37,840 nt of DNA from a virus. This document shows positions 3,134-24,962 of the stretch, piece by piece; within the stretch, counting starts at the first letter, position 1, and the number at the start of each line of letters is the position of its first letter. Location of the stretch: positions 1 through 37,840 of IMG/VR virus record IMGVR_UViG_3300021559_000198; one strand, 5' to 3'. The position numbers and the translations under genes are program-made. The notes below the pieces were generated by a model. That model did not search any database. It had not been told where the DNA came from and was given only the letters and a program-made list of their open reading frames with translations.

Positions 3134-3284
3134 AGCCCGAAGCCACCTCGTAGGGGCTAACGTAGATGCTCTCGCGGATTCCGACGTGGAGCTCCCTCGT
3201 CGTGTAGAGCCTTCCTGCCGGAGTCGGGGGCGGAAGCAAAGGCGGGGGCGCTCCCTGCAAAGCGAGAGCGAGGAGCGCAATCAA
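3099..3284 (-). CDS. Possible short secreted/membrane peptide, 61 aa
   Basis: A weak candidate. A TTG (3284) overlaps the stop of the upstream zinc-ribbon gene as TTGA, and the product opens with a hydrophobic run (IALLALALQGAPPPLLPPP), like a signal peptide followed by a proline-rich linker. Against it: a rare start codon, a 35-base antisense overlap with the plus-strand gene ending at 3133, and no recognisable family. If not real, 3134-3280 is an empty convergent gap. Confidence 0.3.
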   Translation of the reverse strand: MIALLALALQGAPPPLLPPPTPAGRLYTTRELHVGIRESIYVSPYEVASGFTLQISWLHLL

Positions 3285-3469
3285 TTGCCCGACGGATCCT
3301 TCTTCTTCGCCATCCCTTGCGTCACGAACATCGCCGGCCGTTTCCCGCACCGCTTGCATTGCGTCGGACCTCGGTAGACGCCGAGTCGGATCTCACTCGG
3401 ATCGACGCAGCCGCCGCAAGTGAGGCTCCGAGGCGCCGGCCCGATCGCGGATGCGTAGAACTTACTCAT
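3281..3469 (-). CDS. Zinc-ribbon protein, 62 aa
   Basis: The start at ATG 3469 overlaps the upstream stop (ATGA) and has GAGGGG just before it, so longer starts are rejected. Two Cys pairs, CGGC (near residue 18) and CKRC (near 38), the second followed by GKRPAMFV, give a classic zinc-ribbon. The tail is basic (AKKKDP). It is the distal end of the 17 kb minus-strand run. Role unknown. Confidence 0.7.
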   Translation of the reverse strand: MSKFYASAIGPAPRSLTCGGCVDPSEIRLGVYRGPTQCKRCGKRPAMFVTQGMAKKKDPSGN

Positions 3470-3666
3470 GGCCCCTCGACGTCTAGAGCCCGCGCCGTGC
3501 AATCGGGCATCCGCTTGCCGCAGATCCAGCATCGCTTATAACGTTGGATGATGCCTCGGGCCCACGCGGAGAAGCGCGCGACCCAAGGCGCGGGCGGAGC
3601 CTTCGAGGGCCGCTTCAGCGGGATCCTATACACCGCTGACGACGTAGCGGGCGATGGCTTCGGCAT
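3466..3666 (-). CDS. Basic protein with single Cys cluster, 66 aa
   Basis: Ends with an ATGA overlap onto the zinc-ribbon gene. The 3' half is clearly coding (RYKRCWICGKRMPDC: three close cysteines in a basic context); the 5' end is uncertain. ATG 3666 has GGAG almost adjacent, whereas GTG 3633 overlaps the stop of the upstream gene. It is small, basic and aromatic. Likely a metal-binding or nucleic-acid-contacting mini-protein, by composition only. Confidence 0.55.
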   Translation of the reverse strand: MPKPSPATSSAVYRIPLKRPSKAPPAPWVARFSAWARGIIQRYKRCWICGKRMPDCTARALDVEGP

Positions 3667-4066
3667 GGCTCCGGAACCCTTTTGCATCTCGTTCGAAGAG
3701 CCGATCCAATAGCTCCGGGGTTGGCTCCCTCCCCTCACCGGCCTCGACGCAAAGCGCCGCGACGGCATCGAAGCTTTCCCAGATCTTCCGGGCCAAACCC
3801 GCGGTTTCCAATTCAACCGGGGGGTTGGAATGAGGGCACCATCGACCCTTCGTTTGCGCAAGCGACGCTTTGCAAGCCTTGCAGCGATCCCACATGGCGA
3901 AGCAGTGACCGGCATTGTAGGGGGCCGCTGTCGCGACGTGGTCATGGTATTCCAGCCGCGCGAGCTCCTCGGCGTGGGCCTTGTCGGTCACCAGGTCGCG
4001 GCCTTCGACGTCTTGGAGCCAAGGTCGGCCATCACCGTGGAAGGGAAGCCAAACTCCGTATTTCAT
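3626..4066 (-). CDS. Hypothetical protein with Cys/His cluster, 146 aa
   Basis: ATG 4066 is chosen because it overlaps the upstream stop (ATGA); in-frame extension upstream would be Arg-rich antisense-like sequence. It opens with KYGVWLPFHGDGRPW, carries YNAGHCFAMWDRCKACKASL and a later WCPH (a plausible four-ligand zinc site spanning residues 52-77), and ends in helices with EAIARYVVSGV. No recognised family. Confidence 0.75.
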   Translation of the reverse strand: MKYGVWLPFHGDGRPWLQDVEGRDLVTDKAHAEELARLEYHDHVATAAPYNAGHCFAMWDRCKACKASLAQTKGRWCPHSNPPVELETAGLARKIWESFDAVAALCVEAGEGREPTPELLDRLFERDAKGFRSHAEAIARYVVSGV

Positions 4067-6876: not shown

Positions 6877-6885
6877 GATGTCCCT

Positions 6886-7290
6886 TCATTTCCAGCCGAA
6901 AGCTTCGGCCCACGTTTCAATCGCCCACGGAAGGCTCCAGGGGGCGGCATTCAAGACCCGCCGCTCGTTGCCGACGAGAAACTCCCAAGCTCCCTTCGCG
7001 AGGTCGCGGGTTGCCTCATCGAGGGTCTCCAACGAGAGCATGGCCTGAAGGCGCTGGAATTGATCCGCACGAGCGGCTTCGATTCCGCGGAGGCCTCCGT
7101 AGCGCCGTAGTCGTCGGGTCATGAGGAGACCATCGCCGCCAGAGTCGAGCCAACCGCGTGGCCTCTTCGACTTCGGAGACTTAGGCGGGAAAGGCTTCGC
7201 GAAGCGACCCGCGGGGCCTTGCTTGGCTGAATCCCAGATCAACCGGGGGGCGAGAAGCTCCTTCATCTTGCGTCGGCCGGGGCTTTTCAT
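6886..7290 (-). CDS. Hypothetical basic protein, 134 aa
   Basis: ATG 7290 overlaps the GroES-like stop (ATGA). The first half is basic and proline-rich (FPPKSPKSKRPRGW), the second half helical (ARADQFQRLQAMLSLETLDE) and tryptophan-rich at the end (PWSLPWAIETWAEAFGW). No TM and no signal. No recognised family; it could be a DNA- or scaffold-binding protein by composition only. Confidence 0.7.
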   Translation of the reverse strand: MKSPGRRKMKELLAPRLIWDSAKQGPAGRFAKPFPPKSPKSKRPRGWLDSGGDGLLMTRRLRRYGGLRGIEAARADQFQRLQAMLSLETLDEATRDLAKGAWEFLVGNERRVLNAAPWSLPWAIETWAEAFGWK

Positions 7291-7598
7291 TCCGGCTCCA
7301 ACACCGCAAGGATTGAGTCATCGTACATGCTTAGGTATTTCACCCCGTTGAGCTCCACCTGCGGGAAGGGGTCTCGCGCGTTGAAGACCACGCGATCGCC
7401 CGGTTTGCAGTCGGGCATCGGCCACAAGGTGCCATCCTTCCGGAGCATCCCAGGCCCCATCGAGGCGACAATGCCGGTGCCAGTTGGCTTCTTCGCGTTA
7501 TCCGGGATCCAGATCCCTCCTTTAGAGCGATCCTCCGCTTGATCTGGCTTCACCAAGATCCGGGCCCCTAGCAGCTGAATCCTCTCGACGTCGGTCAT
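7287..7598 (-). CDS. GroES-like co-chaperonin
   Basis: The sequence has the Cpn10 pattern over its whole 103 residues. It opens with LGARILVKPDQAE, followed by SKGGIWIPDNAKK (the mobile loop region), TGTGIVASMGPG, KPGDRVVFN and a C-terminal YDDSILAVLE strand. GroES caps the GroEL ring to enclose folding substrates. Phages such as T4 (gp31) carry a substitute so that GroEL can fold their capsid protein. It lies inside the structural operon, coupled to both neighbours, so folding of a virion protein is the natural inference. Length is near the bacterial norm of about 95-100. Confidence 0.88.
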   Translation of the reverse strand: MTDVERIQLLGARILVKPDQAEDRSKGGIWIPDNAKKPTGTGIVASMGPGMLRKDGTLWPMPDCKPGDRVVFNARDPFPQVELNGVKYLSMYDDSILAVLEPE

Positions 7599-7996: not shown

Positions 7997-8054
7997 TTGG
8001 AGAGCAAGCTAACGCATCAGGGAGCGAAGTCAACAGCCGCGATCGGCCACCGAC

Positions 8055-8639
8055 TCAGACCACAACGACTTGGCGCATGAGTTTACCGCCACCGGTCCCG
8101 ACCGTTAGAGTCCCGTCGCCTGTAGCGGCCGCTTTGACCGTTAGCACGCGAGATCCAGCCGCGGGCCCCACCTCAGTGGCAAACGCCGCGGAGACCCCGG
8201 TGGAACCACCCGCATACCCTTGCTCAATCGGGCCGCCGATCACCGAAACACCGTCGATCTGAATGTCGAGCTCCAACGCACCGCCCGACACGCTCCCAGC
8301 AACAGCGGCGGAGACGTAGCCGGTGAGAATGACGCTTTGTCCAGCTACGATCGTTATCGTCGCAGTGGCGACAGTCGCGAGGGCTCCGGTCAAAACGACG
8401 GGGGCGCCGTTGGTGGACGATCCCGTCGAGACCAGGTTTGCGGGGCCGGTGGGGCCCGTTGCGCCGGTTCCCCCGGCTCCCGTTGCTCCAGTGGGGCCCG
8501 TCGCGCCAGAACCCGCGGGGCCAGTCGGACCAGTCGCACCAGAAGGGCCGCCTGGCCCAGTCGCTCCGGCGCCGCCCGGGGGGGTTCCGACGGATGTTGC
8601 GATTGTGCCGACGTAGGTGCTGTAGGGGATGGGGGGCAT
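8055..8639 (-). CDS. Collagen-like spike/fibre protein, 194 aa
   Basis: Residues about 20-67 are Gly-x-y triplets, mostly GATGPTGPx, forming a short collagen-like triple helix. Before it is a short N-terminal strand. After it comes a Ser/Thr/Val-rich beta domain ending in KLMRQVVVV. Collagen-like stalks with a C-terminal beta domain occur in phage receptor-binding and spike proteins, including P5 of the membrane phage PRD1. A trimeric spike or fibre is the best reading. The neighbouring gene has a similar C-terminal beta domain. Confidence 0.8.
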   Translation of the reverse strand: MPPIPYSTYVGTIATSVGTPPGGAGATGPGGPSGATGPTGPAGSGATGPTGATGAGGTGATGPTGPANLVSTGSSTNGAPVVLTGALATVATATITIVAGQSVILTGYVSAAVAGSVSGGALELDIQIDGVSVIGGPIEQGYAGGSTGVSAAFATEVGPAAGSRVLTVKAAATGDGTLTVGTGGGKLMRQVVVV

Positions 8640-8656
8640 GGTTTTTCCGTCGGGTT

Positions 8657-9115: not shown

Positions 9116-9119
9116 GGGA

Positions 9120-9614
9120 TCATCCTCGGCGGCGGTTTTTCTTCCAGTAAAGGTAGCCGAAAACACCGGCGGTCGCGACTCCGGCTCCGATGAGAGCAAA
9201 CGGAATCAGGTTCGACGGTGGTGGGTTTGTCGGAACAGTCGGAGTTGGCGTCGGGGGTGTTGGGGCCGGTGCCGGTGGCACAACGGGAGGAACGACAACA
9301 ACCGGAGGAACAACCGGCGGAGTCGGCGTAGCACCGTGGGGGGTAAAGCAATCCGGAGGCGCGGTCCCTTGCCCGAGGGTGCTCATCACAAATTGCAACG
9401 CCCCACGGGTCAGCGGCCCGTACTTCCCATCCTCAACGAGCGGGTTGTTCGAGTTGGCCAGGTTCCATTGCTGTTGGAAGGCCAAGCACTCCGGAAAAGG
9501 CTGTTGGGTACATGGGTGCGTAGAAAGCCATCCGATCAGATCGGCGGCGGTCTGCGCGAGGGGCGTCGGCGGGAGATCCGGTTGCCCGAAAGCCAGTCGA
9601 GGCATCCAACTCAT
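9120..9614 (-). CDS. Tail-anchored peptidoglycan-binding-like protein A, 164 aa
   Basis: Three parts in order: an N-terminal domain ending in a peptidoglycan-binding-like module (about 44-80, with FQQQWN and DGKYGPLTRGAL); a Pro/Val/Thr stalk (about 96-133); and a C-terminal TM (about 137-156) followed by KKNRRRG. This gives a protein whose head projects from a membrane on a stiff stalk. Its neighbour at 9611-10165 has the same plan, consistent with duplication. In a virion it would suit attachment to, or orientation toward, the host cell wall. Confidence 0.8.
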   Translation of the reverse strand: MSWMPRLAFGQPDLPPTPLAQTAADLIGWLSTHPCTQQPFPECLAFQQQWNLANSNNPLVEDGKYGPLTRGALQFVMSTLGQGTAPPDCFTPHGATPTPPVVPPVVVVPPVVPPAPAPTPPTPTPTVPTNPPPSNLIPFALIGAGVATAGVFGYLYWKKNRRRG

Positions 9615-10165
9615 CGATGATGCTTCTTTCGGCGGTAGGCCCAGTAGATCAAACCAGCCCCAAGAACAGCAGCACCGCCGATGATGACGGGGGTTGGAAT
9701 CCCGGTAGCTCCGGCGGGGGTAATCGAAGAAGATGGTGTCGACCCACCTGGAACCGGTGCGGGGGGCGCGTCAGGCTCCGGCGTCGAAGGCACCACGTCG
9801 CTGAAAACATTCTGGGGTGCCAGCTGCGAAGGCCCGATGACGTTGTTGAGCGCGACTTGAGTGTTGGGGCCGTATTGCTGATCAACGGTGAGGCTTCCCG
9901 GTAGCCCGGAGGTGTTATAGGCGGCCTGGAAAGCACCCACCTGCGGAACTGAATCCCGACTCGGAGCATTGGTGGCGAAGAAGGCCATCAAGTCCGCGGC
10001 GGCTTGCTGAGCCGCGGGAAGGTCGCCAAAGCCAGATCCCCCAGCAAGGCCTTGGCTATAGGCGACCCCGTCAGCGGCAACCCACCAAGTTTTTTCAACG
10101 AGCATCGGAGTTGATCCGAGGCCGGCGGGGCCACTTCCGAGAGGTGCTTCGATCCAGGTTTTCAT
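9611..10165 (-). CDS. Tail-anchored peptidoglycan-binding-like protein B, 184 aa
   Basis: Same design as protein A next door: a head with a peptidoglycan-binding-like module (about 74-110; VGAFQAAYN and QQYGPNTQVALNNVI), a Pro/Ser stalk (about 126-157), a TM (about 159-176, IIGGAAVLGAGLIYWAY) and a basic tail RRKKHHR. It is coupled to protein A by ATGA and starts immediately after the upstream stop. The two are probably paralogues forming a homo- or heteromeric membrane-anchored spike. Confidence 0.8.
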   Translation of the reverse strand: MKTWIEAPLGSGPAGLGSTPMLVEKTWWVAADGVAYSQGLAGGSGFGDLPAAQQAAADLMAFFATNAPSRDSVPQVGAFQAAYNTSGLPGSLTVDQQYGPNTQVALNNVIGPSQLAPQNVFSDVVPSTPEPDAPPAPVPGGSTPSSSITPAGATGIPTPVIIGGAAVLGAGLIYWAYRRKKHHR

Positions 10166-10972
10166 TTACATCTCCACCACGAGGGAAACACCAACCCGCC
10201 AATATCGAGGGCGCCCGCCTTCGTCGCTGCCGAAACTTCCGATGAAATTCTCCTCGAGAGGAAGGCCAATCGCGGGGGTCAACGCGGGGTAAGCTCCGGA
10301 GCTTTGCTTCACGCTGATGAAGAACGCGATGGTGTCGGGGCCTTCAACGGTGATGTCGAGGGCCTTCCAAGCACCATGGGTTCTCTGTTGGGTCCGGAGG
10401 TCAAAGAAAGTAGAGTGGTTGCCTTGGCTAAGGGGGGTTCCCCACGGGCGGCCCAACATCGGGGGTTGGTAGGAGGTCAGCTGGGTATAGATCCGATTCC
10501 CGGGGGCTATCGTGTATTTATTATACAAAAGACAAGGGCCGTCGGCCCAAAGCCGCTTGAAGGAGTTCAGATCCAATGGGGTTGGATCGGTCATCGGGTA
10601 GCCGCTGTTATTCGGCGGCCCGAGCCGATGCATGTGCCAAGAGATGTTGCCGTCGGGCAACCGGAAGTTAGGGGAGATGATCTCTTGCTCAACGAATCGC
10701 GTCGGGGAGATTGCAACCCCAAGAGAGGCGAATTGCCGGTAGCCAACGATGCGAGCAACCCCGCCTTCGCCAAGAGAAAACGAGGCCCCCAGGAAGAGAT
10801 ACCTGGAGGCCTTATCCGGAGTGGCTAAGGTTGGAACCCTCAAGCCAAAGGAGGAGGCCCCACCGAAGGGGTCTCCACCCTGAGCTTGTAAGAACTCATC
10901 GAGGCCGGTGGTCTCAAACTCCGAGACGCGCCGGCTCCCTCTGAGAAGTTCGGGGTTGAGGGGCTGGACCAT
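10166..10972 (-). CDS. Candidate capsid-associated structural protein, 268 aa
   Basis: A soluble, beta-predicted protein without signal or TM, in a three-gene block with the 250- and 451-residue proteins. It is rich in Pro, Gly and aromatics, with segments such as YLFLGASFSLGEGGVARIVG and ITVEGPDTIAFFISVK and the end WRVGVSLVVEM. Size and composition suit a minor capsid protein, penton or second single-jelly-roll capsid protein, but no family match was recognised. A hairpin (10974-10990) lies between it and the upstream gene. Confidence 0.75.
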   Translation of the reverse strand: MVQPLNPELLRGSRRVSEFETTGLDEFLQAQGGDPFGGASSFGLRVPTLATPDKASRYLFLGASFSLGEGGVARIVGYRQFASLGVAISPTRFVEQEIISPNFRLPDGNISWHMHRLGPPNNSGYPMTDPTPLDLNSFKRLWADGPCLLYNKYTIAPGNRIYTQLTSYQPPMLGRPWGTPLSQGNHSTFFDLRTQQRTHGAWKALDITVEGPDTIAFFISVKQSSGAYPALTPAIGLPLEENFIGSFGSDEGGRPRYWRVGVSLVVEM

Positions 10973-10973
10973 C

Positions 10974-10990
10974 TCACTGGATCACAGTGA
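10974..10990. other. Intercistronic hairpin between two capsid-region genes
   Basis: TCACTG (10974-10979) pairs with CAGTGA (10985-10990) around GATCA; the stop codon of the 250-residue gene lies in the structure. It could tune the ratio of the downstream 268-residue protein by slowing ribosomes or protecting the mRNA 3' end. Confidence 0.3.
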
Positions 10991-11734
10991 AAGGACCATC
11001 TTTATATACGAGTCTGACATCTCGATCCCGAAGTCATTCTGCAACGAGTCGATTGCTTCTCGCGTCGTCATTGTAACAAAAGATTGGGTCACTGGAACCC
11101 ATCCGCGGTAGGTGCAAACGACTTCGATCGGCGCGTAGGGGAGAAGGATCTTCGCGTTGAAGTCCATCCACAACTGCTGTTGGTAGGTGAGCACCCAACC
11201 GCCAGGCCAATGGGAGCTCCCGGTGACCATGTCGGCCAAAGTCGAGAGCGGCGTGTATTTGTTGGCGACGTCGTAGCGAGGCGCGCCTTGGATGCTCAGC
11301 TTGGCTTCGATTCCCGACTGGAAGCCGAAGAAGAAGTCGCTGAACGCTTGGAATTGGTTTTGGTTGGCGGTCAGGGATTCGTTCTGAACCCGGACCACTA
11401 GCGCATCGATGAGGGTGTCCTGAACGATCTTGACGTCGGAGCCGACCCCGGTAATGACGGAGGTCGCCGTATCGGGGAAGATGGCTCGAACGTTGATGAT
11501 GTAAGGCGCGAGGGGAACCCCCTTTGCCTTGGCGAGGGCGAGCCTCGGAGAGCCCGCCGCCAGCATCGCGTAGACGCCAGCAGCGAGGGGGCCCAAGACG
11601 TTGTCGGTGCAATCGCAGCTCCCCATACCGAAGGCCTTCACCTTCGGCTTTGAGGGGGCTCCGAGGCCGGCTGTTTTCGAGAGCAGCTTTTCGAGTTGCT
11701 CGTTGGAGATCCAGGCTCCTGCTTGCTGAGTCAT
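10982..11734 (-). CDS. Candidate capsid-associated structural protein, 250 aa
   Basis: Starts at ATG 11734 behind the strongest ribosome-binding site seen (AAAGGAGGT, 11743-11751), as expected for an abundant product. It opens with a helix (NEQLEKLLSKTAGLG), has a short Cys motif (GSCDC) and then a mixed domain with YIINVRAIFPDTATS and IEVVCTYRGWVP. No TM or signal. Between the candidate capsid gene and the 268-residue gene, it is likely a major or second capsid component; no family recognised. Confidence 0.78.
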   Translation of the reverse strand: MTQQAGAWISNEQLEKLLSKTAGLGAPSKPKVKAFGMGSCDCTDNVLGPLAAGVYAMLAAGSPRLALAKAKGVPLAPYIINVRAIFPDTATSVITGVGSDVKIVQDTLIDALVVRVQNESLTANQNQFQAFSDFFFGFQSGIEAKLSIQGAPRYDVANKYTPLSTLADMVTGSSHWPGGWVLTYQQQLWMDFNAKILLPYAPIEVVCTYRGWVPVTQSFVTMTTREAIDSLQNDFGIEMSDSYIKMVLSL

Positions 11735-15151: not shown

Positions 15152-16108
15152 TCACGGTCGAACGAAGCCTCTATCGTCAAGTTGAGCACCGCGGGGGAGC
15201 TCCAACCGACAGAACTTCCCCCGCTTGTAGAGCCGCACCTTCTTGTGGCCCCCCAAGAGCGACATCAAGCCCTCATTGAAAGAGTGACGGTAGTAGCCGG
15301 CCCGGCGACCGCTTCGGGTGTAGAAGATGTCCGCTACCTCGCCGAGGTAATCCCAGCTCTTGAGGGGCTTCGGCGGGGTGTTGACCCTTCCGACGTGGCC
15401 GTCGCTTCGGCCAAAGTAGGCCCTCGCATCGCCTTCGATGTCGGTTTTTGACTGACGGAGCCTAGCCGGCCCAATCAAGACGCTCTTAGAGGGCCACCAT
15501 CGCCCACTTGGGTCATGCATCATTGCCCCAGAGCAATGGATCTCGCGGCCGTCGGCCATCTCAAAAGTGACCCCGCGGCCCTTGGCGATGAGGGCCTTGC
15601 TTCCAAGTTTTCTTCCGCCGCCGCCGCCGCCGGTGGGATTTTCTTTGGGCCCCTTGAAGATCATCCACCCCATCACCCCGAGGCCCACCGCGACGAGGCC
15701 CCACAAAGCGGCCGTCGCAACGCTAGTCGGCGTCGACGTCGAAGCGGCTTTGACCGGCGTTGCGGGAGTAATCTGCGGCGCGGTTGAAACCGGCCCTCTC
15801 AGATCCGCTTGAATGAGCTTCGCGAGGTCTTGCGCGGTATGCGCGGTCTGAAGAGAAGCGAACCGCCACTGGAGCGCTTGTAGTTGTGGGAGGACCCCGT
15901 CGATTTCTGGGGGCCAAGAGGTAACCTGCGCCTTGATCGTCGCGACCTGCGGAATGATGGCTTGGTAGGCCTGGACCGCATTTTCAAATTTCAAAGCAGC
16001 GAGGTAGGCATCGCCGGAGTCGATCGTGACGCCGAGGTTTTGCAAGTCGACCGCGGCAGAACCGAAGCCTCGGTGGAGAACTATCGCCTTCGACTCCATA
16101 GCCACCAT
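15152..16108 (-). CDS. Single-TM structural protein, 318 aa
   Basis: From ATG 16108 (or 16099 in the same frame, behind AGGATGG): a helical N-terminal domain, a Pro/Thr/Ser linker, one TM (about 131-152, ALWGLVAVGLGVMGWMIFKG), a poly-Gly hinge (GGGGGGRK) and a basic C-terminal domain with YFGRSDGHVGRVN, FYTRSGRRAGYYRHSFNEG and LYKRGKFCRLELP. It overlaps the upstream gene by 28 bases, more than usual. The basic half beyond the membrane could face capsid or DNA. No family recognised. Confidence 0.8.
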   Translation of the reverse strand: MVAMESKAIVLHRGFGSAAVDLQNLGVTIDSGDAYLAALKFENAVQAYQAIIPQVATIKAQVTSWPPEIDGVLPQLQALQWRFASLQTAHTAQDLAKLIQADLRGPVSTAPQITPATPVKAASTSTPTSVATAALWGLVAVGLGVMGWMIFKGPKENPTGGGGGGRKLGSKALIAKGRGVTFEMADGREIHCSGAMMHDPSGRWWPSKSVLIGPARLRQSKTDIEGDARAYFGRSDGHVGRVNTPPKPLKSWDYLGEVADIFYTRSGRRAGYYRHSFNEGLMSLLGGHKKVRLYKRGKFCRLELPRGAQLDDRGFVRP

Positions 16109-16479
16109 CCTACCCCAGCCCCGATGAAGAGGCCTCCCGCGATCCAAACCGGAGCTGAACTAACCGGCTTGGATGGGATCTCCCCGCCGGGAGGCGTCGG
16201 GGTTCCACCATCCGAGTCGACCCAAGCTGAGACCGCGTGGGAATCATCGATCCAAGATAGGATCCCTGGAACCCCCCAAGGGATGCTTCCGTCGGCGGTC
16301 GCGGTTCCGGCTATCAAAACCTCGCCTGGCATCGCTGCGTAGGAATAAACCTGAAGCCCATGCTTCGCCGCAAACGACTTGATGTCGGCTTCGGAATGAG
16401 AGGTCGCTACCAAGGCCGCGTAGGCGGAGCCCTTCTTGGTGGCGATGTCTTTCCCGGTTGGGAGAGCTACCCAAGTCAT
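16081..16479 (-). CDS. Tail-anchored protein, 132 aa
   Basis: An N-terminal soluble domain of about 90 residues (ATSHSEADIKSFAAKHGLQV, EVLIAGTA, WGVPGILSWIDD) is followed by a Pro/Gly linker and a C-terminal TM (about 110-128, VWIAGGLFIGAGVGWWLW) ending in SRRR. Same membrane topology as the two peptidoglycan-binding-like proteins but with a different head. It is coupled to the transglutaminase-like gene by ATGA. Confidence 0.8.
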   Translation of the reverse strand: MTWVALPTGKDIATKKGSAYAALVATSHSEADIKSFAAKHGLQVYSYAAMPGEVLIAGTATADGSIPWGVPGILSWIDDSHAVSAWVDSDGGTPTPPGGEIPSKPVSSAPVWIAGGLFIGAGVGWWLWSRRR

Positions 16480-17774
16480 CGCCGCGGCAAGAGCCGATCG
16501 AGCGTGTAGAGTCCCACGATCGTGCCGACGATCCCGAGGATCAACCCAACCCCCCCGATCTCGATCGTGCTTGGATTGGTCAACTTCTGACCGAGCGTTT
16601 GGTAGGCCTCGAGAGCACCTCCCGCACCCTTCGTGAAGAGCTGAAGGACGCCGTGAGCGAGGATCCCAAGCCCCTCAACTTGACCAACGACCTGTTGTTG
16701 AAGACCAAGCCCAGGGGGATCCGGCAACGCTAACGTCGGGCAGTCCCGCTGAATCTGCGGCTGGTAAAAGTTGCCGACATCCGTCACCACTTTTTGGAAG
16801 TCAACGAGAATGTCTCCGGCGCTCGCGACGATCTCCCAGTCTTGAAGGCCCGCGTGCTGGTTCCAAGATGACGTAATGCTGTCGCTTATGTTTTGGTTTG
16901 CGTTAGCCCAGAGCTGCAACGTCTTCTGATCCGGAGGGGCGGCGAACTCGCTTGCGTTAGGAACTGGGCCGGTCCCATTTGCAGCGGCGGCCCAAGAAGC
17001 AGAGCAGGCGGCAGCGGCCCGAGCGGTATCCATCACGTAGCTGTCCCAGAGATTTCGGTACGAGAGGACATCACCTGGGGTGACGACGCCGGTTGCGCCG
17101 AAACCTGCCCCCCAATGAGGGGTGGTGCTTCGATTTCTTACTCGCCTCACCGCGCCAACTTTTCCGAGTGTGACCAATTCAGCGGATGCCTCGGGCAAGT
17201 TGCCGATCGGCTCCATCGGATCGACCCACACCTCGCTCACCGCGTTAGCCGCAGATCCGAAGGGCATCTTCGTTGAAGGGTCGGCGTACTGCCAGTCTTC
17301 GCCGGTGTAGACCGCGATCAGAACATGCTCTTGCGCATCGGCGCCGAAGTTTTGCTTCACGATCTGCGTTGGAAGGCCAATCGACAGATACATTGACCCG
17401 AGAGCGACCGTGAGGTCATCGCAGTCGCCACCTTGAACGCAGAGGTTGGGCCGCAAGCACAACGTTGCGCCGGCTGCTTGGATGCTCTCGGTTCCGTAGG
17501 GATCGGGGGTGTAGACCGTTGCGGCCCGAAGGCAATCGAGAATGGCGCTCGCTTGCTTCGCGGGGGTTGTATTTTGATCCCTTCCATCGAGCCCCTTCGC
17601 TTTGAGGCAATCCATCGCCCAACTGCGCACACCCGCGTCGATCTTGCCCTCACGCATCTTCTGCGCCATCGCGTCGAGGCTTTGGCGGATCCCCGCCTGG
17701 CCATTTGCATAGCCTTGGCGGGTCACCGGAATACCGGCGGCGCGCATGCTTTGGAGGCCAGGATCGAAGGCCAT
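16476..17774 (-). CDS. Transglutaminase-like protein with C-terminal membrane anchor, 432 aa
   Basis: A transglutaminase-like cysteine fold is shown by the ordered triad Cys118 in GGDCDDLTVALG, His150 in EHVLIAV and Asp165 in YADPS, with typical spacing. Such domains act as peptidases, cross-linkers or amide hydrolases. The C-terminal region ends in a TM (about 407-426, GVGLILGIVGTIVGLY) and LLPRR. The membrane anchor and position among virion genes suggest it acts on a structural protein or on peptidoglycan-linked peptides at entry. Start ATG 17774; soluble N-terminus, no signal. Confidence 0.85.
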   Translation of the reverse strand: MAFDPGLQSMRAAGIPVTRQGYANGQAGIRQSLDAMAQKMREGKIDAGVRSWAMDCLKAKGLDGRDQNTTPAKQASAILDCLRAATVYTPDPYGTESIQAAGATLCLRPNLCVQGGDCDDLTVALGSMYLSIGLPTQIVKQNFGADAQEHVLIAVYTGEDWQYADPSTKMPFGSAANAVSEVWVDPMEPIGNLPEASAELVTLGKVGAVRRVRNRSTTPHWGAGFGATGVVTPGDVLSYRNLWDSYVMDTARAAAACSASWAAAANGTGPVPNASEFAAPPDQKTLQLWANANQNISDSITSSWNQHAGLQDWEIVASAGDILVDFQKVVTDVGNFYQPQIQRDCPTLALPDPPGLGLQQQVVGQVEGLGILAHGVLQLFTKGAGGALEAYQTLGQKLTNPSTIEIGGVGLILGIVGTIVGLYTLDRLLPRR

Positions 17775-17784: not shown

Positions 17785-18069
17785 TTACTTACTCGACGAG
17801 GTAGACCCCGGAGCTAGTGAAGCACTTGTGGGGCCAGCCGGAGGCGTTGGGCCGGTGAGAGCCGTCGAAGCCGTAGCGGGGGGAGTCGGCGCTATCAAAC
17901 TCCCGGCGACGAAAGCCGCCACCAATGCCCCCACCGCTCCGAAGGCCGCGGTCACATTCCCGGGCCGCTTCGCGTTGGCGAGCTCTCCGATCACCAATCC
18001 CGCGACTGCTCCGGCAGCGCCCCCGAGGACCGTAACGAACCCAACCGTTGTGCCAGCCTTGACATCCAT
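17785..18069 (-). CDS. Two-TM glycine-zipper protein, 94 aa
   Basis: Two Gly/Ala/Val helices, about 8-29 and 41-60, joined by ELANAKRPGN; then a Pro/Thr/Ser-rich tail with no charged residues until the final SSK. Glycine-zipper hairpins pack tightly in membranes and are seen in phage membrane-pore and virion proteins. Likely a virion-membrane component; no family. Confidence 0.78.
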   Translation of the reverse strand: MDVKAGTTVGFVTVLGGAAGAVAGLVIGELANAKRPGNVTAAFGAVGALVAAFVAGSLIAPTPPATASTALTGPTPPAGPTSASLAPGSTSSSK

Positions 18070-18084
18070 AGGTAAACGATACTC

Positions 18085-18543: not shown

Positions 18544-18545
18544 GA

Positions 18546-19076: not shown

Positions 19077-19468
19077 GGTAACCGCCGGAAGAAGATGTAG
19101 CCTCGGCCTTGGGTAGACGTCCCTAAAGTCAAGGTCAAAAGTAGCATGGCGGGGGCGTCGACTACGACAAGAGCCTCACTCGTATAGGTTCCCGTGGAGC
19201 CTAACCGGCATCCCTCTGGCGCTAGCAATAACCCTAAATCCGTAGGAATCCCGAGGCTTAGCGTCGCCGCCGGGTCATCGAAGGGATCTATAACCAAGAC
19301 CGATGCCTGGCTGAAGATGGTTCCCGCAGAGAGGCCTCCAAGGGTGACTACAGGCGGAGTCGATGGATCAAACTCGAAACCCGCAACAATCTCTCCGCCA
19401 GCCGAAGGATCGAAGACCTTGAGGGCGACAAGTGCGCGGAGACGGACGACGTCGGTTTGGCCGGTCAC
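19073..19468 (-). CDS. Beta-rich structural protein, 131 aa
   Basis: GTG 19468 overlaps the upstream stop (GTGA); the longer frame upstream is Arg/His-rich antisense-like sequence and is rejected. The product is all strand-like: LRALVALKVFDPSAGG, SQASVLVIDPFDDP, ALVVVDAPAMLLLTLTLGTS, then GYIFFRRLP. Fits the set of small virion surface proteins. No family. Confidence 0.72.
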   Translation of the reverse strand: MTGQTDVVRLRALVALKVFDPSAGGEIVAGFEFDPSTPPVVTLGGLSAGTIFSQASVLVIDPFDDPAATLSLGIPTDLGLLLAPEGCRLGSTGTYTSEALVVVDAPAMLLLTLTLGTSTQGRGYIFFRRLP

Positions 19469-19965
19469 GACACAACGATGGTGACGTCGAAGCCAGGGGC
19501 CCCGCTCATCGTGAAGTCGGGGCCGGTTCCGTGGTCTTCCATGACACCGGGGGTCAGGTGAATGACCGCGGTTCCGGTTGCAATCGCCTTGTAGGTCCCG
19601 GAGGTGAGATGCATCCCGGTCGGCGTCGGGTTGACTTCCGCAAGCGAGGGGTTGATCGTGAGGGGGCCACCTGAGGAGGTGGGCTTCAGGGAGACGGCCC
19701 AAACGAGAGTGGGATCGCTCACCACCGGCGTTATCTGGATCGTCTCACCGACATGCATCCCGGCCTCCACCGGGCCGGTCGGCTGAAGCAGGTAAGTGGC
19801 CCTCGGAGCCGTCGGAGGAGCGAATACCGGGGCGTTAGAGGGAGGCGGCGGGGTTGGAGCCGAAGCCGCGACAGCCGAAGGTGGGGGCCGGAAGATAAAG
19901 TAAAGCGCTACCCCCGCGACGGTCGCGCCACCGACGGCAAGAGCTATTTTGGTCTCCTTTTTCAC
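19465..19965 (-). CDS. N-anchored protein with Ig-like domain, 166 aa
   Basis: N-terminal TM (about 6-25, KIALAVGGATVAGVALYFIF) with a short Lys-rich cytoplasmic or interior stub, a proline-rich stalk (about 27-55) and a C-terminal domain with YKAIATGTAVIHLTPG and FDVTIVVS, resembling bacterial Ig-like repeats. Topology is opposite to the tail-anchored proteins downstream. Likely a membrane-anchored surface protein. Confidence 0.8.
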   Translation of the reverse strand: MKKETKIALAVGGATVAGVALYFIFRPPPSAVAASAPTPPPPSNAPVFAPPTAPRATYLLQPTGPVEAGMHVGETIQITPVVSDPTLVWAVSLKPTSSGGPLTINPSLAEVNPTPTGMHLTSGTYKAIATGTAVIHLTPGVMEDHGTGPDFTMSGAPGFDVTIVVS

Positions 19966-19972
19966 CGGCGGA

Positions 19973-20389
19973 TCAACCGGTTGCGAGGAAAGCGGCGTTC
20001 GTCGTGTTTACGCCATCTTGCAGCGCAACGACTCCATTCGGCACCGGCCCCGACTGACCGTTGTACTTGGCGATGGCGACGTAGCTGGAGCCGCTACCTT
20101 GAAGGCCGCCTGGGGTGACCCCGCTTCCGTTGAAGAAGAGGATCCCCACCGAAGTCCAGCTGGCTTGCTTCAACGCCGTAACGAGGGAGTTGACATCGGT
20201 AACCCCAGAGGGCACCGAAGCCGCGAAGGTGTACGTCTGACCGTTGGTAAACTGGGTCACCGGGGTTCCGGCGGCAAGTTGACCGGCCGGAACTGAGGGG
20301 GCCTTATACTTTTCGTAGTACCAGACGCCTCCTACGATCGCCGCGAGAACGCCACCGCCGATGAGCCAGTTTCGCGTGGAACGCTTCAT
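19973..20389 (-). CDS. N-anchored membrane protein, 138 aa
   Basis: ATG 20389 gives MKRSTRNW, then a TM (about 8-25, LIGGGVLAAIVGGVWYY) and a soluble Ser/Gly/Val domain (VNSLVTALKQASWTSVGILF). The upstream frame extension into the divergent gap is rejected. It is the first gene of the 17 kb minus-strand run. Function unknown; virion-membrane protein inferred from its class. Confidence 0.78.
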   Translation of the reverse strand: MKRSTRNWLIGGGVLAAIVGGVWYYEKYKAPSVPAGQLAAGTPVTQFTNGQTYTFAASVPSGVTDVNSLVTALKQASWTSVGILFFNGSGVTPGGLQGSGSSYVAIAKYNGQSGPVPNGVVALQDGVNTTNAAFLATG

Positions 20390-20456
20390 GCGGCTTATGC
20401 TACCGCCGGTGACACGGAAGTGCAATTGTCAAGGGGATGCGGTAGTCTGAGACCCG
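20390..20456. promoter_or_regulatory. Divergent intergenic region, likely promoter
   Basis: The only divergent gap inside the structural region. On the minus strand a perfect TTGACA is at 20432-20427, but the best -10-like element (TAGCAT) is too far away (24 bases). On the plus strand TTGTCA and TAGTCT are too close. Both transcription units should start near here, yet a standard sigma70 pair is not convincing. Confidence 0.4.
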
Positions 20457-21734
20457 ATGGTGACCCCGCCGCATTGGCCTCAGGGTAGGACCGGGGTTGG
20501 GGCCAGCCTTTCGGATTTTGCTGCTCTCACCTCTTCTGATCCGCACTTCCAAGCCGCTTGGGGTGAAATCAACGGCCAGCTCGACATCGAGGGCGCCGGC
20601 ACCACCGAGATCAACTCTGCCAAAATCGCGCTCACCAACGCCTTCGAGCAGCTTTCAACCCAGAGCTTCGGCCTCAGCGGCCAAGACGCGATCAACGCCG
20701 CAAAACAGTATGTTCTCATTGGTCAAACCGTTATGGGAGCCGTTCAGACGGTGGGGGGCCTCGTCGGCCAGCTCGAGAATGGGGCCCCTCCTCTTGAGGT
20801 CATGCAGGCCTTTACCGGAACCCTCATCGGGTTAGCGGCAGGGGCTGGGTTGATCTCAGCGGGAATCGGAGCGGCCATCGTCGCGGGGGTGGGGGCCATC
20901 CTCGACATCTTGGGCTCCGTTGGTCTCTTCGGATCTCCACCGCCGGGGGTTGCGGTTCCAGGCTGCAACTATTCGGTGCCTTCTCAACCGGATTTTCAGT
21001 TTGGCTGCATCGTCGCGTGGGGGCCGAAGGTCGAACCGACGTCGACCCAATGGCGCAAATTTCCCCAACCGGGAAATCCAACCGATGTCCCTTGGTTTCA
21101 ACCGATCCCTAATACCTCGACGGTCTACGGTGACTGGCCCCAGATTCCAAACGGGCCTCCCCCCATTCGACTTGGCGGACCCGCCCCAAGTGGAAGGCCG
21201 ATCGACACTGGCTTCCCGGCTTACCAACGGGCGCTCAACGACTCGAGCAACGGAGGCTTCTTCCTCGCCTTCTTCCAGGCCTGGCAATCCAACGCGGAGT
21301 ATGCGTTGAATGGGTTGAAGCCGCAGCCTGACGAGCAGGTCTTGATCCACACGTTGCGGTTGTGGAATCGGGCGCATGAAGGGCCGATGGTGCCGCTTCG
21401 AGGGGGCTTCTACGCTGAGTCGCTCGTGCCGCTCGCGATGAACACGTTGAGCGGAAATGACCCCCTCATGTTTGCGGGGGGCCTCGGGATCAATGCGGGG
21501 GCCATCAAGAGCCCTCCCCGGAAGGTCATCGCGCTTCACCTTCCGTCGGGAAGCATCAAAGCGTCGCCGACTTTGCCGGCGGTAACTTCAACCGGCGCCA
21601 AGGTTGCCGCGGGAACCGCCGTTGTCGGCGGGGCCGCCATTCTAGGAACCGTTGTTTTTAGCTTGGTCAAGGGCCAAGCGGTTGATGCGGTTTTGGGGGA
21701 TGCCTGGAAACATGTGAAGGGATGGTTTCGATGA
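20457..21734 (+). CDS. Multi-TM structural protein, 425 aa
   Basis: A helical N-terminal domain (about 15-110), a long Gly/Ala hydrophobic region (about 119-158, GLAAGAGLISAGIGAAIVAG), a Pro/Trp-rich soluble middle, and a C-terminal TM (about 385-405, VVGGAAILGTVVFSLVKG) followed by the basic end KHVKGWFR. The first hydrophobic region could be a helical hairpin used to penetrate membranes, as in viral entry proteins. It is plus-strand, unlike its neighbours. No family. Confidence 0.8.
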   Translation: MVTPPHWPQGRTGVGASLSDFAALTSSDPHFQAAWGEINGQLDIEGAGTTEINSAKIALTNAFEQLSTQSFGLSGQDAINAAKQYVLIGQTVMGAVQTVGGLVGQLENGAPPLEVMQAFTGTLIGLAAGAGLISAGIGAAIVAGVGAILDILGSVGLFGSPPPGVAVPGCNYSVPSQPDFQFGCIVAWGPKVEPTSTQWRKFPQPGNPTDVPWFQPIPNTSTVYGDWPQIPNGPPPIRLGGPAPSGRPIDTGFPAYQRALNDSSNGGFFLAFFQAWQSNAEYALNGLKPQPDEQVLIHTLRLWNRAHEGPMVPLRGGFYAESLVPLAMNTLSGNDPLMFAGGLGINAGAIKSPPRKVIALHLPSGSIKASPTLPAVTSTGAKVAAGTAVVGGAAILGTVVFSLVKGQAVDAVLGDAWKHVKGWFR

Positions 21735-22198
21735 AACGCCGTAAGTCAATCACCGGGACATTACGCCGCGAGGGGTACTCCAAATCAGAAGCCGATGCAA
21801 TTGCCCGACGCATCCGAAACAAGGCGAAGAAGCAGCGGGAAGCAAAGTCAAATCCCTCCGGCACCACCTGGGTGCTCCTCGGCGTCGGCGTCGCTGCCCT
21901 CGGAGTCGGGGTTTACTTCCTCCTGAAGCCCTCGACATCCTCAACTACCGCCACAACCGCCGCCCCTGTTCCTGCAAGCCTCCCTCCCGGAACCGATATG
22001 CATGCGGCAGTCACTGCGACGCGACTGATGCTCATCGGACATGACGCCGAAAGAACGCCAGCAGCAGCTTGGCTAAGGCAGTTCCAAGCGAGCGTTGGTC
22101 TTCCGGCTACTGGGATCCTCGACCCAACGACGCGGGTTCAGTTGAATAAGGCAACGGACCTCGCGCGACAGCTGCCGGCGACGACAATTCTTGGCTAA
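21731..22198 (+). CDS. N-anchored peptidoglycan-binding-like protein C, 155 aa
   Basis: ATG 21731 overlaps the previous stop (ATGA), so the earlier ATG at 21722 is rejected. A basic helical N-terminus (1-40, with ARRIRNKAKKQREAKSNP), a TM (about 47-65), a Thr/Ala/Pro stalk and a C-terminal peptidoglycan-binding-like module (about 108-142, LRQFQASVGLPATGILD and TTRVQLNK). It is the mirror image of the tail-anchored versions at 9120-10165. The basic inner tail could contact DNA. Confidence 0.82.
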   Translation: MKRRKSITGTLRREGYSKSEADAIARRIRNKAKKQREAKSNPSGTTWVLLGVGVAALGVGVYFLLKPSTSSTTATTAAPVPASLPPGTDMHAAVTATRLMLIGHDAERTPAAAWLRQFQASVGLPATGILDPTTRVQLNKATDLARQLPATTILG

Positions 22199-22210
22199 GC
22201 GCTAAGCGCT
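22198..22210. repeat. AGCGCT inverted-repeat pair between convergent genes
   Basis: Two AGCGCT palindromes separated by one A lie exactly across the 10-base gap between convergent stops. It is too short to be a confident terminator but is the only structure available to separate the two transcripts. Confidence 0.25.
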
Positions 22211-23684
22211 ACGGGGCTTCCCATCCACCGCTAGTCGGAGCCGCCCCATTAGGGGGAGGCGGCGACGATGGAACCGATCCTACCCCGCCATCAATCGCCC
22301 CCGCCGGGATCTCCTTCACGACTCGAGCCGGCACCGCTTGAGGGCCTTGGGTGAACTTCACGATCGCATCCTTCATCGCGTTCCCGAGCCCGTTGGCGAG
22401 ATCCATCGCTCGCTCCGCGATGACGGGGTTAGACATGAGAACCCCCAGAGGACTTATTTCCTCGGAGGCCTTATCCTTCGCGTAATTGATGGGGCGACCG
22501 TCAGACCAGGTAGCGCCAGGGACCGCGGCGACACTCCAGGGGATGTCATCCTCGGGGTTGCGCGGCGCCGGCTTTTCCTCTTCTGGCTCCTCTTCGGCTT
22601 CAACCGAAACCGAAGGGGCCCCGAGGCCCGAGGCTTGCTTTATGCTCTTCTCCATCGTCGCGCCTGCGGTGTTGATGATGTTTTCCATCAATCGGCCGGC
22701 CATTTTCTCGATCATGCCGCTAAGGCCACCTGCGGCTTGTTGAACTGGCGGTGGCGAAGCAACCGACGGAGCGGCGGCAACCGGAGCCGGGGGCGGAGCG
22801 GCAACCGCCGGCTTGAAAACCCCCGCCGTTTGGAGCGCCATCAAAACCTGAGCGGTTACCTTCTGAGCGAGGGCCTCTTCATTTATGACCGGGGCCGCGA
22901 CGCCGGGAGGGGCCGGGATATTGGGCTGTCTTCCTTCCCGCGCTGCGTTGAGGGCCTCACTCAGGGCCCCACGGAGGTAACCGAGTTCACTCATCAACCC
23001 GGGATCAGGAGGGGCTGGGGCTTGCTGTTGGGGGGGTTGGTATCCGGTGAAGCCGGCGGCTGGAGGAAACCATTGGGGTTGAGGCTGCCATGGAGGCTGA
23101 GGCGGTCCCATCGGCATCGGAATCCTAGGCGCCGCTACCCCCGGCTGACCCGCATCCGCTTGGTCCTGCGCGTTGATGATGTTCCGACAGGTCTGAACGT
23201 CGGGCATCGCAATGCTCGATGTCGTGATGCTTTGGCCGTCGGCCTTGCGCCCAAAGTAGACGTCGTAGGCCGCTGGGCCTTGAGCGCCGGCCCCAATGTG
23301 AGCGAAGCGCATCGCGTAGTCGACGAGGGCTTGGCCTGGGGTGAGCTCACTACCACCCGTGATTGACTCGCCGCCGACTCGCCCAACGAAGACCTTACCG
23401 TTAGGCGAAGGAGGATGGGTTCGATGGAAGCTGATGCTGACATCGCGTGGGCTAAGGTTTTGAGTCGGAAGCCACGCAACGAGGTCGTTCCAGGTTTGTT
23501 CTGCCTCACCGGTGCCGACTCCACCCGAGGCCCGATAGAATTTCTTCGGGTCGACGGCGCCGGCTCCGCGCTTGTTGGGCTTGGGTTTGCGTTGATGACC
23601 GGGAGGCCGCGTCGGCTCTTCGGGGGTATCGCCACCCTCATCTTGATCCTGATCGTCGTCGTCGCGATCGTTGTCGATGCTCAT
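22209..23684 (-). CDS. Large acidic/proline-rich structural-type protein, 491 aa
   Basis: ATG 23684 overlaps the upstream stop (ATGA). It opens with an Asp/Glu/Gln tract (DNDRDDDDQDQDEGGD), then a basic stretch and a folded domain (about 45-170; WNDLVAWLPTQNLSPRDVSI, TPGQALVDYAMRFAHIGAGA). A long Pro/Gln/Ala linker and a C-terminal helical region (VIAERAMDLANGLGNAMKDA) follow. No TM, no Walker motif. By composition it could be a scaffold or internal virion protein. The C-terminal segment NPVIAERAMDLAN weakly resembles NPQTAEAAMELAS in the RadC-like protein at 25624-27210, perhaps a shared interaction motif. Confidence 0.78.
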   Translation of the reverse strand: MSIDNDRDDDDQDQDEGGDTPEEPTRPPGHQRKPKPNKRGAGAVDPKKFYRASGGVGTGEAEQTWNDLVAWLPTQNLSPRDVSISFHRTHPPSPNGKVFVGRVGGESITGGSELTPGQALVDYAMRFAHIGAGAQGPAAYDVYFGRKADGQSITTSSIAMPDVQTCRNIINAQDQADAGQPGVAAPRIPMPMGPPQPPWQPQPQWFPPAAGFTGYQPPQQQAPAPPDPGLMSELGYLRGALSEALNAAREGRQPNIPAPPGVAAPVINEEALAQKVTAQVLMALQTAGVFKPAVAAPPPAPVAAAPSVASPPPVQQAAGGLSGMIEKMAGRLMENIINTAGATMEKSIKQASGLGAPSVSVEAEEEPEEEKPAPRNPEDDIPWSVAAVPGATWSDGRPINYAKDKASEEISPLGVLMSNPVIAERAMDLANGLGNAMKDAIVKFTQGPQAVPARVVKEIPAGAIDGGVGSVPSSPPPPNGAAPTSGGWEAP

Positions 23685-23893
23685 AGAAGCTCCAGGGTGA
23701 TCTTGCACCTTGCGCCGAATGGAATGCCCGCTGCATCCACCTCGGACATGTAGATTTGCATGTAAGGCGATTCATCCTTCGAAAGAGGTTGTAGGGGCTT
23801 TGACGGAGGAACTCTCTCGACGCCAAGAACCACCCTTCCCTCATCGTGGTAGACGATTTTTACGACTCTCCCCGTGACAACAACGGCCTTCAT
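23681..23893 (-). CDS. Small beta-barrel-like protein, 70 aa
   Basis: A compact all-beta pattern: KAVVVTGRVVKIVYHDEGRV, LGVERVPP, MQIYMSEVDAAG and RCKITLELL. It could be an OB/SH3-like barrel or a decoration protein. It is coupled on both sides by ATGA overlaps. No family recognised. Confidence 0.75.
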   Translation of the reverse strand: MKAVVVTGRVVKIVYHDEGRVVLGVERVPPSKPLQPLSKDESPYMQIYMSEVDAAGIPFGARCKITLELL

Positions 23894-24789
23894 GCAATCA
23901 CCGGGGGGCTAGCGGAAACGGGGCCGAGAGTAGCTTGCTCCAAAGCGACGTTCATCAAATTCTTGAAGGGGGCTGCTTGATCCGACGTCGGGGGGAAGAC
24001 GGCCTGGAAGTAAGGCGTCAGCACCACCGTCGGCGGTTCAGTGAAGCCGGCCCCGGGGTTGGTCAACAGGATCAAATCCAACCCCATCGAGGCAACTAGG
24101 ATCGCTCCGCTTCCGGGAACTACTGCTGGATCGATAACAGCAACTGAAGGCACGGAGGTATAACCGCTTCCTGGATCCGTCACGGTGACCCCGGTGACAA
24201 CCCCGAGGGTAATCGTCGGCGTCAACACCGCCGCTCGGCCCCCCTTTGCAAGGCCCCCTTGGATCAAAATGAAAGTCGAAGGCCCATAGCCTCCACCCCC
24301 GGCGGTTACCGTAGCCGAAACTACCTTCAGTCTGGCTTCGGCGTGGGCCGGAGCGTTGAGGCTTCCGTCGGCCAAGTTGACCGGATCCGGATCGCCCGGA
24401 GAAGTGTTGAAGTATTGGCGATCCATCTGATCGGGTCGAAAAGACAACACCTGGGGGGTCTCTTTGCTCCGGCCACCGGAGAAGGAAACGACCGGCGGAA
24501 GAATGTAGCCGCTTCCTGGGGAAGTCACCGTCAAAGCATCGATGGGGGAGCCAGAGCCATCGCCCGGGACCAGCGAAGCGGTGGCCGTCGCGGTGGAAAT
24601 CGGGTTCAAACCGAGGACAATCGTTCGCACGACTGGGGAGGCGACGGGAGTTGAATCCGAGATGACCCTCACTCCTAAAAACGAAAGGGCATCTTTCGGA
24701 ACAGGAACTGCCGCCATCAACGCCGCGACTTGCGCAGCGGAGGCGCCGCCGAGGAAGGCCTTATATACGAGTGTTGCGGTGGAAGACAT
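23890..24789 (-). CDS. Beta protein with GxGY repeats, 299 aa
   Basis: Four degenerate repeats of the form (P/G)GxG(Y/F)xxPPxVxx, at residues about 91 (PGSGYILPP), 164 (GGGGYGPST), 206 (PGSGYTSVP) and 245 (PGAGFTEPP), each next to Thr/Val strands. This repeat is known from phage virion proteins with beta-prism or beta-helix shafts. The N-terminus is helical (AAQVAALMAAVPVP). Likely a virion fibre or vertex protein; the start overlaps the upstream stop by one base (TGATG). Confidence 0.75.
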   Translation of the reverse strand: MSSTATLVYKAFLGGASAAQVAALMAAVPVPKDALSFLGVRVISDSTPVASPVVRTIVLGLNPISTATATASLVPGDGSGSPIDALTVTSPGSGYILPPVVSFSGGRSKETPQVLSFRPDQMDRQYFNTSPGDPDPVNLADGSLNAPAHAEARLKVVSATVTAGGGGYGPSTFILIQGGLAKGGRAAVLTPTITLGVVTGVTVTDPGSGYTSVPSVAVIDPAVVPGSGAILVASMGLDLILLTNPGAGFTEPPTVVLTPYFQAVFPPTSDQAAPFKNLMNVALEQATLGPVSASPPVIA

Positions 24790-24962
24790 CAGACTAACCT
24801 CGGTCGGTCGTAGCGAGGGAGCTGCTTGCGGAAGTCAGCGTCATCGGCCTTGAAGTTGAGGGCGCGGAGGGTCTCCGTCGAAATGCCGATCGGCTTTCCA
24901 TCAGGAAAACTCGGGTAGACCAGCTCTTGGCGGGCCCAGTCGTAGAGAAATATCGGACTCAT
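24789..24962 (-). CDS. Hypothetical small protein, 57 aa
   Basis: Coupled on both sides (ATGA at 24962, TGATG at 24789). Aromatic start SPIFLYDWARQELVYP, then a helix rich in Lys/Asp (LRALNFKADDADFRKQL) and a basic end. Such short proteins before fibre-like genes often act as adaptors, but this is speculation. No family. Confidence 0.7.
   Translation of the reverse strand: MSPIFLYDWARQELVYPSFPDGKPIGISTETLRALNFKADDADFRKQLPRYDRPRLV

Follow-up and report, generated by a model that had tools for sequence, protein, structure and literature searches.

For prokaryotic viruses with double jelly-roll capsid proteins, genome sizes of 7–18 kb are given in PMC5894146 and of less than 20 kb in PMC8812541, and an FtsK/HerA-type packaging ATPase is present in most viruses of the PRD1, PM2 and SH1 types (PMC8812541). 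Such an ATPase is lacking in SPV1, which has circular dsDNA, a membrane and a nucleoprotein core, and in FLiP (PMC8459092, PMC8812541); it has been proposed that jelly-roll viruses without an ATPase assemble around their genome (PMC5894146). The sequence analyzed here (the window) is the single contig of IMG/VR record IMGVR_UViG_3300021559_000198 (37,840 bases; also labelled G000), and it represents about half of a circular dsDNA virus genome. According to our analysis, the window and its relatives are best read as a new group, at family or order level, of tailless viruses, probably of bacteria, that contain a membrane and have large circular genomes.

Protein and pattern scans of IMG/VR revealed eight full-length relatives and one near-identical fragment. 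In the closest relative, G1 (76,031 bp), a 451-aa protein is 97% identical to that of the window; the identity of this protein is 74% in G2 (73,439 bp), 62% in G3 (78,382 bp), 58% in G5 (69,254 bp), about 45% in G8 (78,563 bp) and 36–37% in G7 (77,344 bp), G9 (69,616 bp) and G10 (75,631 bp). When the motif AY[MT]PPxAQ[ED]G was searched as a degenerate DNA pattern, only group members were matched. All eight relatives carry direct terminal repeats of 62–172 bp that are 99.3–100% identical. The window alignment crosses the join of G1 without a break (one 862-column match over the junction), and homologous ORFs span the join in G1, G2, G3 and G10. These relatives are complete closed circles with unit lengths of 69.1–78.5 kb, and the absence of genes can therefore be judged. 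The initial annotation, made from the window, had put the genome at more than 37.8 kb, and the circular relatives place its true size at 69–78 kb.

In about 50,700 phage records, a tblastn search matched neither the 451-aa protein nor the neighboring 250-aa protein. The last pattern scan also brought up two short contigs (L048 and L050), which have nothing in common with the group and were discarded as chance matches. The core described below is also carried by a 4.4 kb contig of a Chloroflexota-labelled MAG (451-aa identity of 48%); its GC content of 68% is alike in three other pieces of the same MAG. No match to the group was obtained in 399 other Chloroflexota genomes. Because a binning error is possible, we claim no host; the hosts of the group are probably bacteria.

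The ORFs on which the initial annotation was based are present in the window. Reciprocal best hits delineated 11 gene families that occur in 8/8 complete genomes, all of them drawn from the 7.3–25.6 kb block of the window. In their conserved order, with both members of the stalk family given, they are:

24959..25558, minus strand: core protein of about 200 aa (8/8 genomes)
23890..24789, minus strand: core repeat protein with PGSGYT..P.V repeats (8/8 genomes)
22209..23708, minus strand: core Pro-rich protein of about 500 aa (8/8 genomes; no PHROG match)
16476..17774, minus strand: transglutaminase-like protein with a C-terminal membrane anchor (membrane segment, TM, in 9/9)
15152..16147, minus strand: core protein (8/8 genomes; TM in 2/9, the window and G1 versions)
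13223..14746, minus strand: basic (protamine-like) membrane protein with a Lys/Arg-rich N-terminus, hydrophobic segment(s) and a Pro-rich C-terminus
11768..13123, minus strand: 451-aa capsid candidate, proposed as major capsid protein (35–97% identity in 10 homologues, the highest conservation in the block)
10982..11734, minus strand: 250-aa single jelly-roll capsid candidate (predicted model of a 204-aa orthologue)
10166..10972, minus strand: 268-aa third capsid or vertex candidate (8/8 complete genomes)
9611..10165, minus strand: C-terminally anchored stalk protein, paralogue of 9120–9614 (same family; TM)
9120..9614, minus strand: C-terminally anchored stalk protein (core family, 8/8; TM in 9/11 members)
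7287..7598, minus strand: GroES co-chaperonin (PF00166, E = 6.3e-18; 8/8 genomes)

The order and strand of these families are identical across the eight complete genomes and the window, which makes the structural block more than a chance grouping, and the order is kept down to about 35% capsid identity. In the eight complete genomes, 10166–10972 always adjoins the other two capsid candidates.

The replication families are next in constancy, with PolA-UDG, Dda helicase, VapE, Sak4-like, PDDEXK and Snf2 families found in 7/8 genomes; G8, with neither the PolA nor the Dda family, encodes a primase-polymerase and different helicases. We infer that a structural core steadier than the replication genes is the pattern of a virus morphogenetic module. 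The genes flanking the block include the PolA-type polymerase noted at the outset:

1567..2703, plus strand: tyrosine integrase (PF00589, E = 2.3e-24; 7/8 genomes)
27605..28300, minus strand: ThyX thymidylate synthase (PF02511, E = 7.4e-41)
29542..31020, minus strand: Dda-like helicase (phrog_325, E = 3.1e-67; 7/8 genomes)
32366..34969, minus strand: uracil-DNA glycosylase fused to a family-A DNA polymerase (PF03167, E = 5.8e-21; PF00476, E = 1.7e-35; 7/8 genomes)

The circular form, the integrase, the lack of a terminase and a virus label that comes from IMG/VR only would also suit a non-viral reading, namely a large element that is conjugative or integrative, or a plasmid derived from a virus. 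We consider this very improbable: the core is a conserved cluster of capsid-like proteins with a co-chaperonin, the genomes encode spikes and an endolysin, the Pfam lists of G1 and the window hold no mobility or plasmid family, and tblastn of the 451-aa protein against 72,556 plasmid records gave no match.

The three capsid candidates of the window (451, 250 and 268 aa) had no match in Pfam or PHROGs, and their sequence profiles gave nothing significant against the PDB. No similarity was found by hhalign among the three, nor between them and PRD1 P3, PM2 P2 or lambda E, a result that does not exclude a common fold. The 268-aa candidate appears strand-rich by Chou-Fasman, a method too crude to carry weight; an early cellulase-like match of this protein (E = 0.03) was lost once more homologues were added and was dropped. 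A model of the 451-aa protein from 4 sequences reached a pLDDT of 28 and was discarded.

For the 250-aa family, an AlphaFold model was built from 10 sequences on the 204-aa member from contig L040 (pLDDT 77.9, pTM 0.69, eight strands). The first ranks of a Foldseek search with this model were held by the Pam1 capsid chain H (E = 5.6e-4) and by SPV1 (E = 1.2e-3; probability 0.99, 184 columns, TM-score 0.43–0.47). The VIA-align comparison gave Z 7.9 for PBCV-1 (111 residues, rmsd 3.2), Z 7.4 for SPV1 (142 residues, the longest among the matches listed, rmsd 4.0; below the level of kinship), and Z 6.7, 6.0 and 5.8 for HHIV-2, SH1 and HCIV-1, respectively; non-viral jelly rolls, e.g., PHM and nucleoplasmin, were matched as well. 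HK97 chains were absent among the VIA-align matches listed for this model, a table that cannot in itself exclude the fold. Based on the model and its Foldseek and VIA-align matches, the prediction of a jelly roll for the 250-aa family is well supported, whereas kinship with the SPV1 capsid protein is only suggested. For this one of the three capsid candidates, the fold check called for by the initial annotation returned a predicted jelly roll and not HK97. The fold searches also brought up Pam1 and KHP chains, which are jelly-roll cement proteins from tailed phages, and these lend some weight to a different reading, that of a very divergent tailed phage in which the 451-aa protein would be an HK97-type capsid protein, the jelly roll would be a cement protein, and the terminase, portal and tail genes would have diverged past recognition.

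The composition of the block bears on this choice. A strict Kyte-Doolittle TM scan (19 residues, mean ≥1.6) flagged 11 of the 26 proteins in 6137–23684 vs 6 of the 37 in the remainder of the window (Fisher P = 0.02). The same scan flagged 10/23 PRD1, 4/10 PM2 and 1/20 lambda morphogenetic genes; in its share of membrane proteins, the structural block resembles PRD1 and PM2 and not lambda. Besides the core families, the proteins concerned include:

8055..8639, minus strand: collagen-like spike or fibre protein (GATGPTGP repeats; similar proteins in G1, G2, G3 and G5)
14750..15139, minus strand: small two-TM protein (TM)
16081..16479, minus strand: small C-anchored protein (from its sequence; orthologue in G1)
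17785..18069, minus strand: small two-TM protein (TM; orthologues in G1, G2 and G3)
19465..19965, minus strand: N-anchored protein (from its sequence; orthologue in G1)
19973..20425, minus strand: N-anchored protein (from its sequence; orthologues in G1 and G3)
20457..21734, plus strand: conserved membrane protein (7/8 genomes; TM in 8/8 members)
21722..22198, plus strand: membrane protein with a peptidoglycan-binding motif (PF01471, E = 6.2e-5, over the cut-off)

The initial annotation had counted at least 12 TM proteins, among them those at 16081, 19465 and 19973, which did not reach the strict threshold or had a later start in the gene call; by eye, these three have clear hydrophobic segments beside basic residues. 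Two flagged proteins (8055 and 18546) are probably hydrophobic strands and not TM helices. On these grounds, a count of about 12–13 is fair.

The collagen-like gene and the basic membrane protein described from the window are both real. In 9/9 orthologues of the latter, the first 230 residues contain 31–44% K+R, with a net charge of +61 to +95, compared to a mean K+R of 10% for all proteins; TM is flagged in 6/9. In the 16476 family, the transglutaminase profile PF01841 matched the window protein just under the curated cut-off (E = 2.6e-4) and the L038 protein over it (1.7e-6). Next to the 9120-family stalk, L038 encodes a protein that matches bacterial SH3. A phage lysozyme and collagen-like and beta-helix proteins are encoded in other regions of G1. 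In a divergent tailed phage, the membrane proteins would serve lysis or host takeover; the many anchored stalk proteins within the structural cluster argue against such a phage.

The terminase profiles PF03237, PF20441 and PF03354 gave no match at E ≤ 1 in the window and the relatives searched, and the HK97 capsid profile PF05065 was negative in nine records; the control genomes were positive in both cases. In agreement with what had been noted from the sequence, the searches of the window at E ≤ 0.001 yielded no family of terminase, portal, HK97 capsid, sheath or baseplate proteins, the one exception being the repeat in 23890–24789. The complete Pfam lists for G1 and the window gene set (E ≤ 0.001; 16 and 19 families) contain no terminase, portal, protease, capsid, tail-tube, tape-measure or tail family. 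The G1 sweep left out two long proteins, a spike-like protein and the Snf2 helicase; the lists for G7 and G8 cover the first 25 of 43 and the first 25 of 53 Pfam families, respectively. The tailless membrane-virus reading is thereby supported beyond the window: the targeted profiles and the Pfam sweep of the closest relative found no terminase in the complete circles, and a tape-measure family, also looked for, is missing from that sweep.

Several observations still favor a tailed phage. The 23890–24789 repeat is common to several PHROG virion families, including phrog_460 head closure (E = 4.7e-11, about 70 residues) and baseplate families; the collagen-like proteins match PHROG tail-fibre families; and the genome size is typical of tailed phages. 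A weak PHROG match of 20457–21734 to tape-measure proteins (E = 0.0027) was rejected as tail evidence, a two-TM protein of 425 aa being a poor fit. Against these stand the negative terminase and HK97 searches of complete genomes, Pfam lists without any tail family except fibre-like repeats, and a core with neither a large tape-measure nor a terminase-like P-loop protein. We therefore regard a divergent tailed phage as unlikely.

The packaging ATPase poses a separate question. The Pox_A32 and DUF87 profiles were negative in the members searched, apart from a HerA-like ATPase of 593 aa (DUF87, E = 1.7e-6) in G8 only. A P-loop scan of all genomes revealed Dda, VapE, Sak4-like (AAA_24) and kinase proteins, with no additional ATPase shared by the genomes; a conserved Walker A motif is absent from all 11 universal core families. 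The absence of both terminase and ATPase is judged from family profiles and motif scans, which a very divergent copy could escape. With this qualification, a packaging ATPase is apparently missing from the whole genome of most members. The initial annotation, which noted its absence from the window, is to be corrected in this respect: the apparently genome-wide absence separates the group from the PRD1, PM2 and SH1/P23-77 types used there for comparison and places it closer to SPV1 and FLiP.

In a variant of our best explanation that differs in the packaging step only, a tailless membrane virus would have an unrecognized motor: some atypical ATPase, the AAA_24 protein (Sak4-like) or a translocase of the host. 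The prevalence of FtsK/HerA-type ATPases in the comparable viruses speaks for it, as do the AAA_24 and VapE proteins of nearly all members and the HerA-like protein of one. However, the AAA_24 protein matches Sak4 annealing proteins and sits in the replication region, HerA is confined to a single genome, and the profile and Walker A results are negative. We consider this variant rather unlikely.

Overall, we think it quite probable that the group is tailless and membrane-containing. As a general description, a circular dsDNA virus, probably bacterial, whose particle is icosahedral and tailless and encloses a membrane is likely; motorless assembly round a tethered genome is a tentative proposal. 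In such a particle, the shell would be built by the 10982 and 11768 proteins, perhaps with 10166, and folded with the help of the virus GroES. The 13223 protein would line the inner face of the membrane and condense the genome, and membrane and shell would form round this tethered nucleoid, with no pumping of DNA into a finished shell. The C-anchored stalks, with peptidoglycan-binding, SH3-like or transglutaminase-like heads, may be placed at the vertices and help to breach the cell wall, and the collagen-like and beta-helix proteins would be spikes. Motorless precedents are about 20 kb or smaller, which counts against the motorless model. The fullest version, a new lineage at order level or above, comprising tailless viruses of bacteria of 69–78 kb that are motorless and have a jelly-roll shell and membrane round protamine-like-condensed DNA, is more tentative still.

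The group is about four times larger than the known bacterial viruses of the tailless membrane type, and the lack of a recognized motor is unexpected at this size. If true, a group this large that has replication machinery of its own would change the view of tailless bacterial viruses as small, and would mean that an icosahedral virus of bacteria can enclose a large dsDNA genome without pumping it in at the cost of ATP; motor-free packaging of such a genome would be directly testable. The group would then also be a bacterial, large-genome counterpart of the SPV1-like state proposed to be ancestral to single jelly-roll viruses.

In our full-text literature search, with subscription journals and most preprints outside its reach, the group was not found described. 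Among known systems, Portogloboviridae (SPV1) share circular dsDNA with the group, as well as glycosyltransferase and methyltransferase genes, and the single jelly-roll capsid protein of SPV1 (VP4) gives the longest alignment among the structural matches listed for the 250-aa protein. The internal membrane, the DNA condensed as nucleoprotein and the lack of a packaging ATPase are described for SPV1 (PMC8459092, PMC8812541) and predicted for the group. The likeness is structural, with no sequence similarity shown in this analysis. Unlike the group (69–78 kb), SPV1 is archaeal and about 20 kb in size, has the nucleocapsid protein VP1, and has no polymerase, GroES or peptidoglycan-active proteins. 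Finnlakeviridae (FLiP) resemble the group as membrane-containing tailless phages without a packaging ATPase (PMC8812541), but have ssDNA and a small genome.

Helvetiavirae/Singelaviria (SH1, P23-77, HHIV-2 and HCIV-1) are tailless, with a membrane and single jelly-roll capsids, and the SH1, HHIV-2 and HCIV-1 chains match our model. They have two vertical single jelly-roll MCPs (PMC8812541), whereas one single jelly-roll candidate was modelled in the group; their FtsK/HerA-type ATPase (PMC8812541) is absent from most group members searched, and their genomes are smaller. Tectiviridae (PRD1) and Corticoviridae (PM2) have a similar share of membrane proteins among the structural genes and wall-active virion proteins, but differ in their genomes of 10–15 kb, their double jelly-roll MCP and the packaging ATPase P9 of PRD1. 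In Bamfordvirae/Tectiliviricetes, an FtsK/HerA-type ATPase occurs in most members, whereas in the group a HerA-like DUF87 protein occurs only in G8. Caudoviricetes share with the group the genome size, PolA, Dda, VapE, ThyX and fibre-like collagen proteins, while their terminase, portal, HK97 capsid and tail module were not found in it. The predicted fold class and the layout of the group are known from tailless jelly-roll membrane viruses, and it is distinguished by its sequence, its size and the apparent absence of a motor.

The virus group recurs and coexists: G004 (IMG/VR 3300050821_016907) and G005 (3300021168_000026), which come from two different metagenomes, are 99.98% identical across 40,748 bp, and metagenome 3300050821 is the source of G003 as well as G004. 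The following genes were located in the window and in two complete genomes of the group, G1 and G008:

Window 5208-6140: 310-aa protein, kept in the complete relatives G1, G2 and G5
Window 7779-7973 and 36603-36857: a pair of small proteins with KGG (stress-induced acidophilic) repeats
Window 31744-32379: gene resembling HNH/AP2 homing endonucleases, adjoining the polymerase gene
Window 32366-34969: uracil-DNA glycosylase fused N-terminally to a family-A DNA polymerase
G1 28941-31276 (sequence piece L005:8941-11273): methyltransferase gene adjoining a glycosyltransferase-methyltransferase gene
G008 (78,563 bp) 33057-34838 (piece L053:13060-14838): HerA/DUF87-like ATPase, 593 aa

The glycosylase-polymerase fusion may indicate unusual nucleotide pools when taken together with ThyX, a NUDIX protein and a protein matching a dNMP phosphatase PHROG. 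No orthologue of the neighboring homing-endonuclease-like gene was found in G1, G2, G3 or G5. G008 lacks the PolA and Dda families, in place of which it carries a primase-polymerase, and it is the only group member with the HerA/DUF87-like ATPase. The KGG-repeat family is present in seven of the eight genomes.

The 310-aa protein had no Pfam match at E <= 0.001; its Cys and His motifs (GSCTFHG, GGHWLSLDY, GPNSWG) look papain-like by eye. The PGSGYT..P.V repeats of window 23890-24789 also occur in PHROG families annotated as head closure, baseplate wedge or virion structural protein, and are taken as a common virion repeat, not a diagnostic gene.

A 113-aa ORF in one group member (L038:15086-15427) has an N-terminal hydrophobic stretch followed by ~35 residues resembling the 451-aa capsid candidate (YGGMDLRHMLRGNSEFR..PYLI..GVPIGL in common), and is probably a partial duplicate or capsid-derived fragment.

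The methyltransferase and glycosyltransferase-methyltransferase gene pair of G1 is also kept in G2. A glycosyltransferase and a methyltransferase have also been described as encoded by Sulfolobus polyhedral virus 1 (PMC8459092, PMC8812541).
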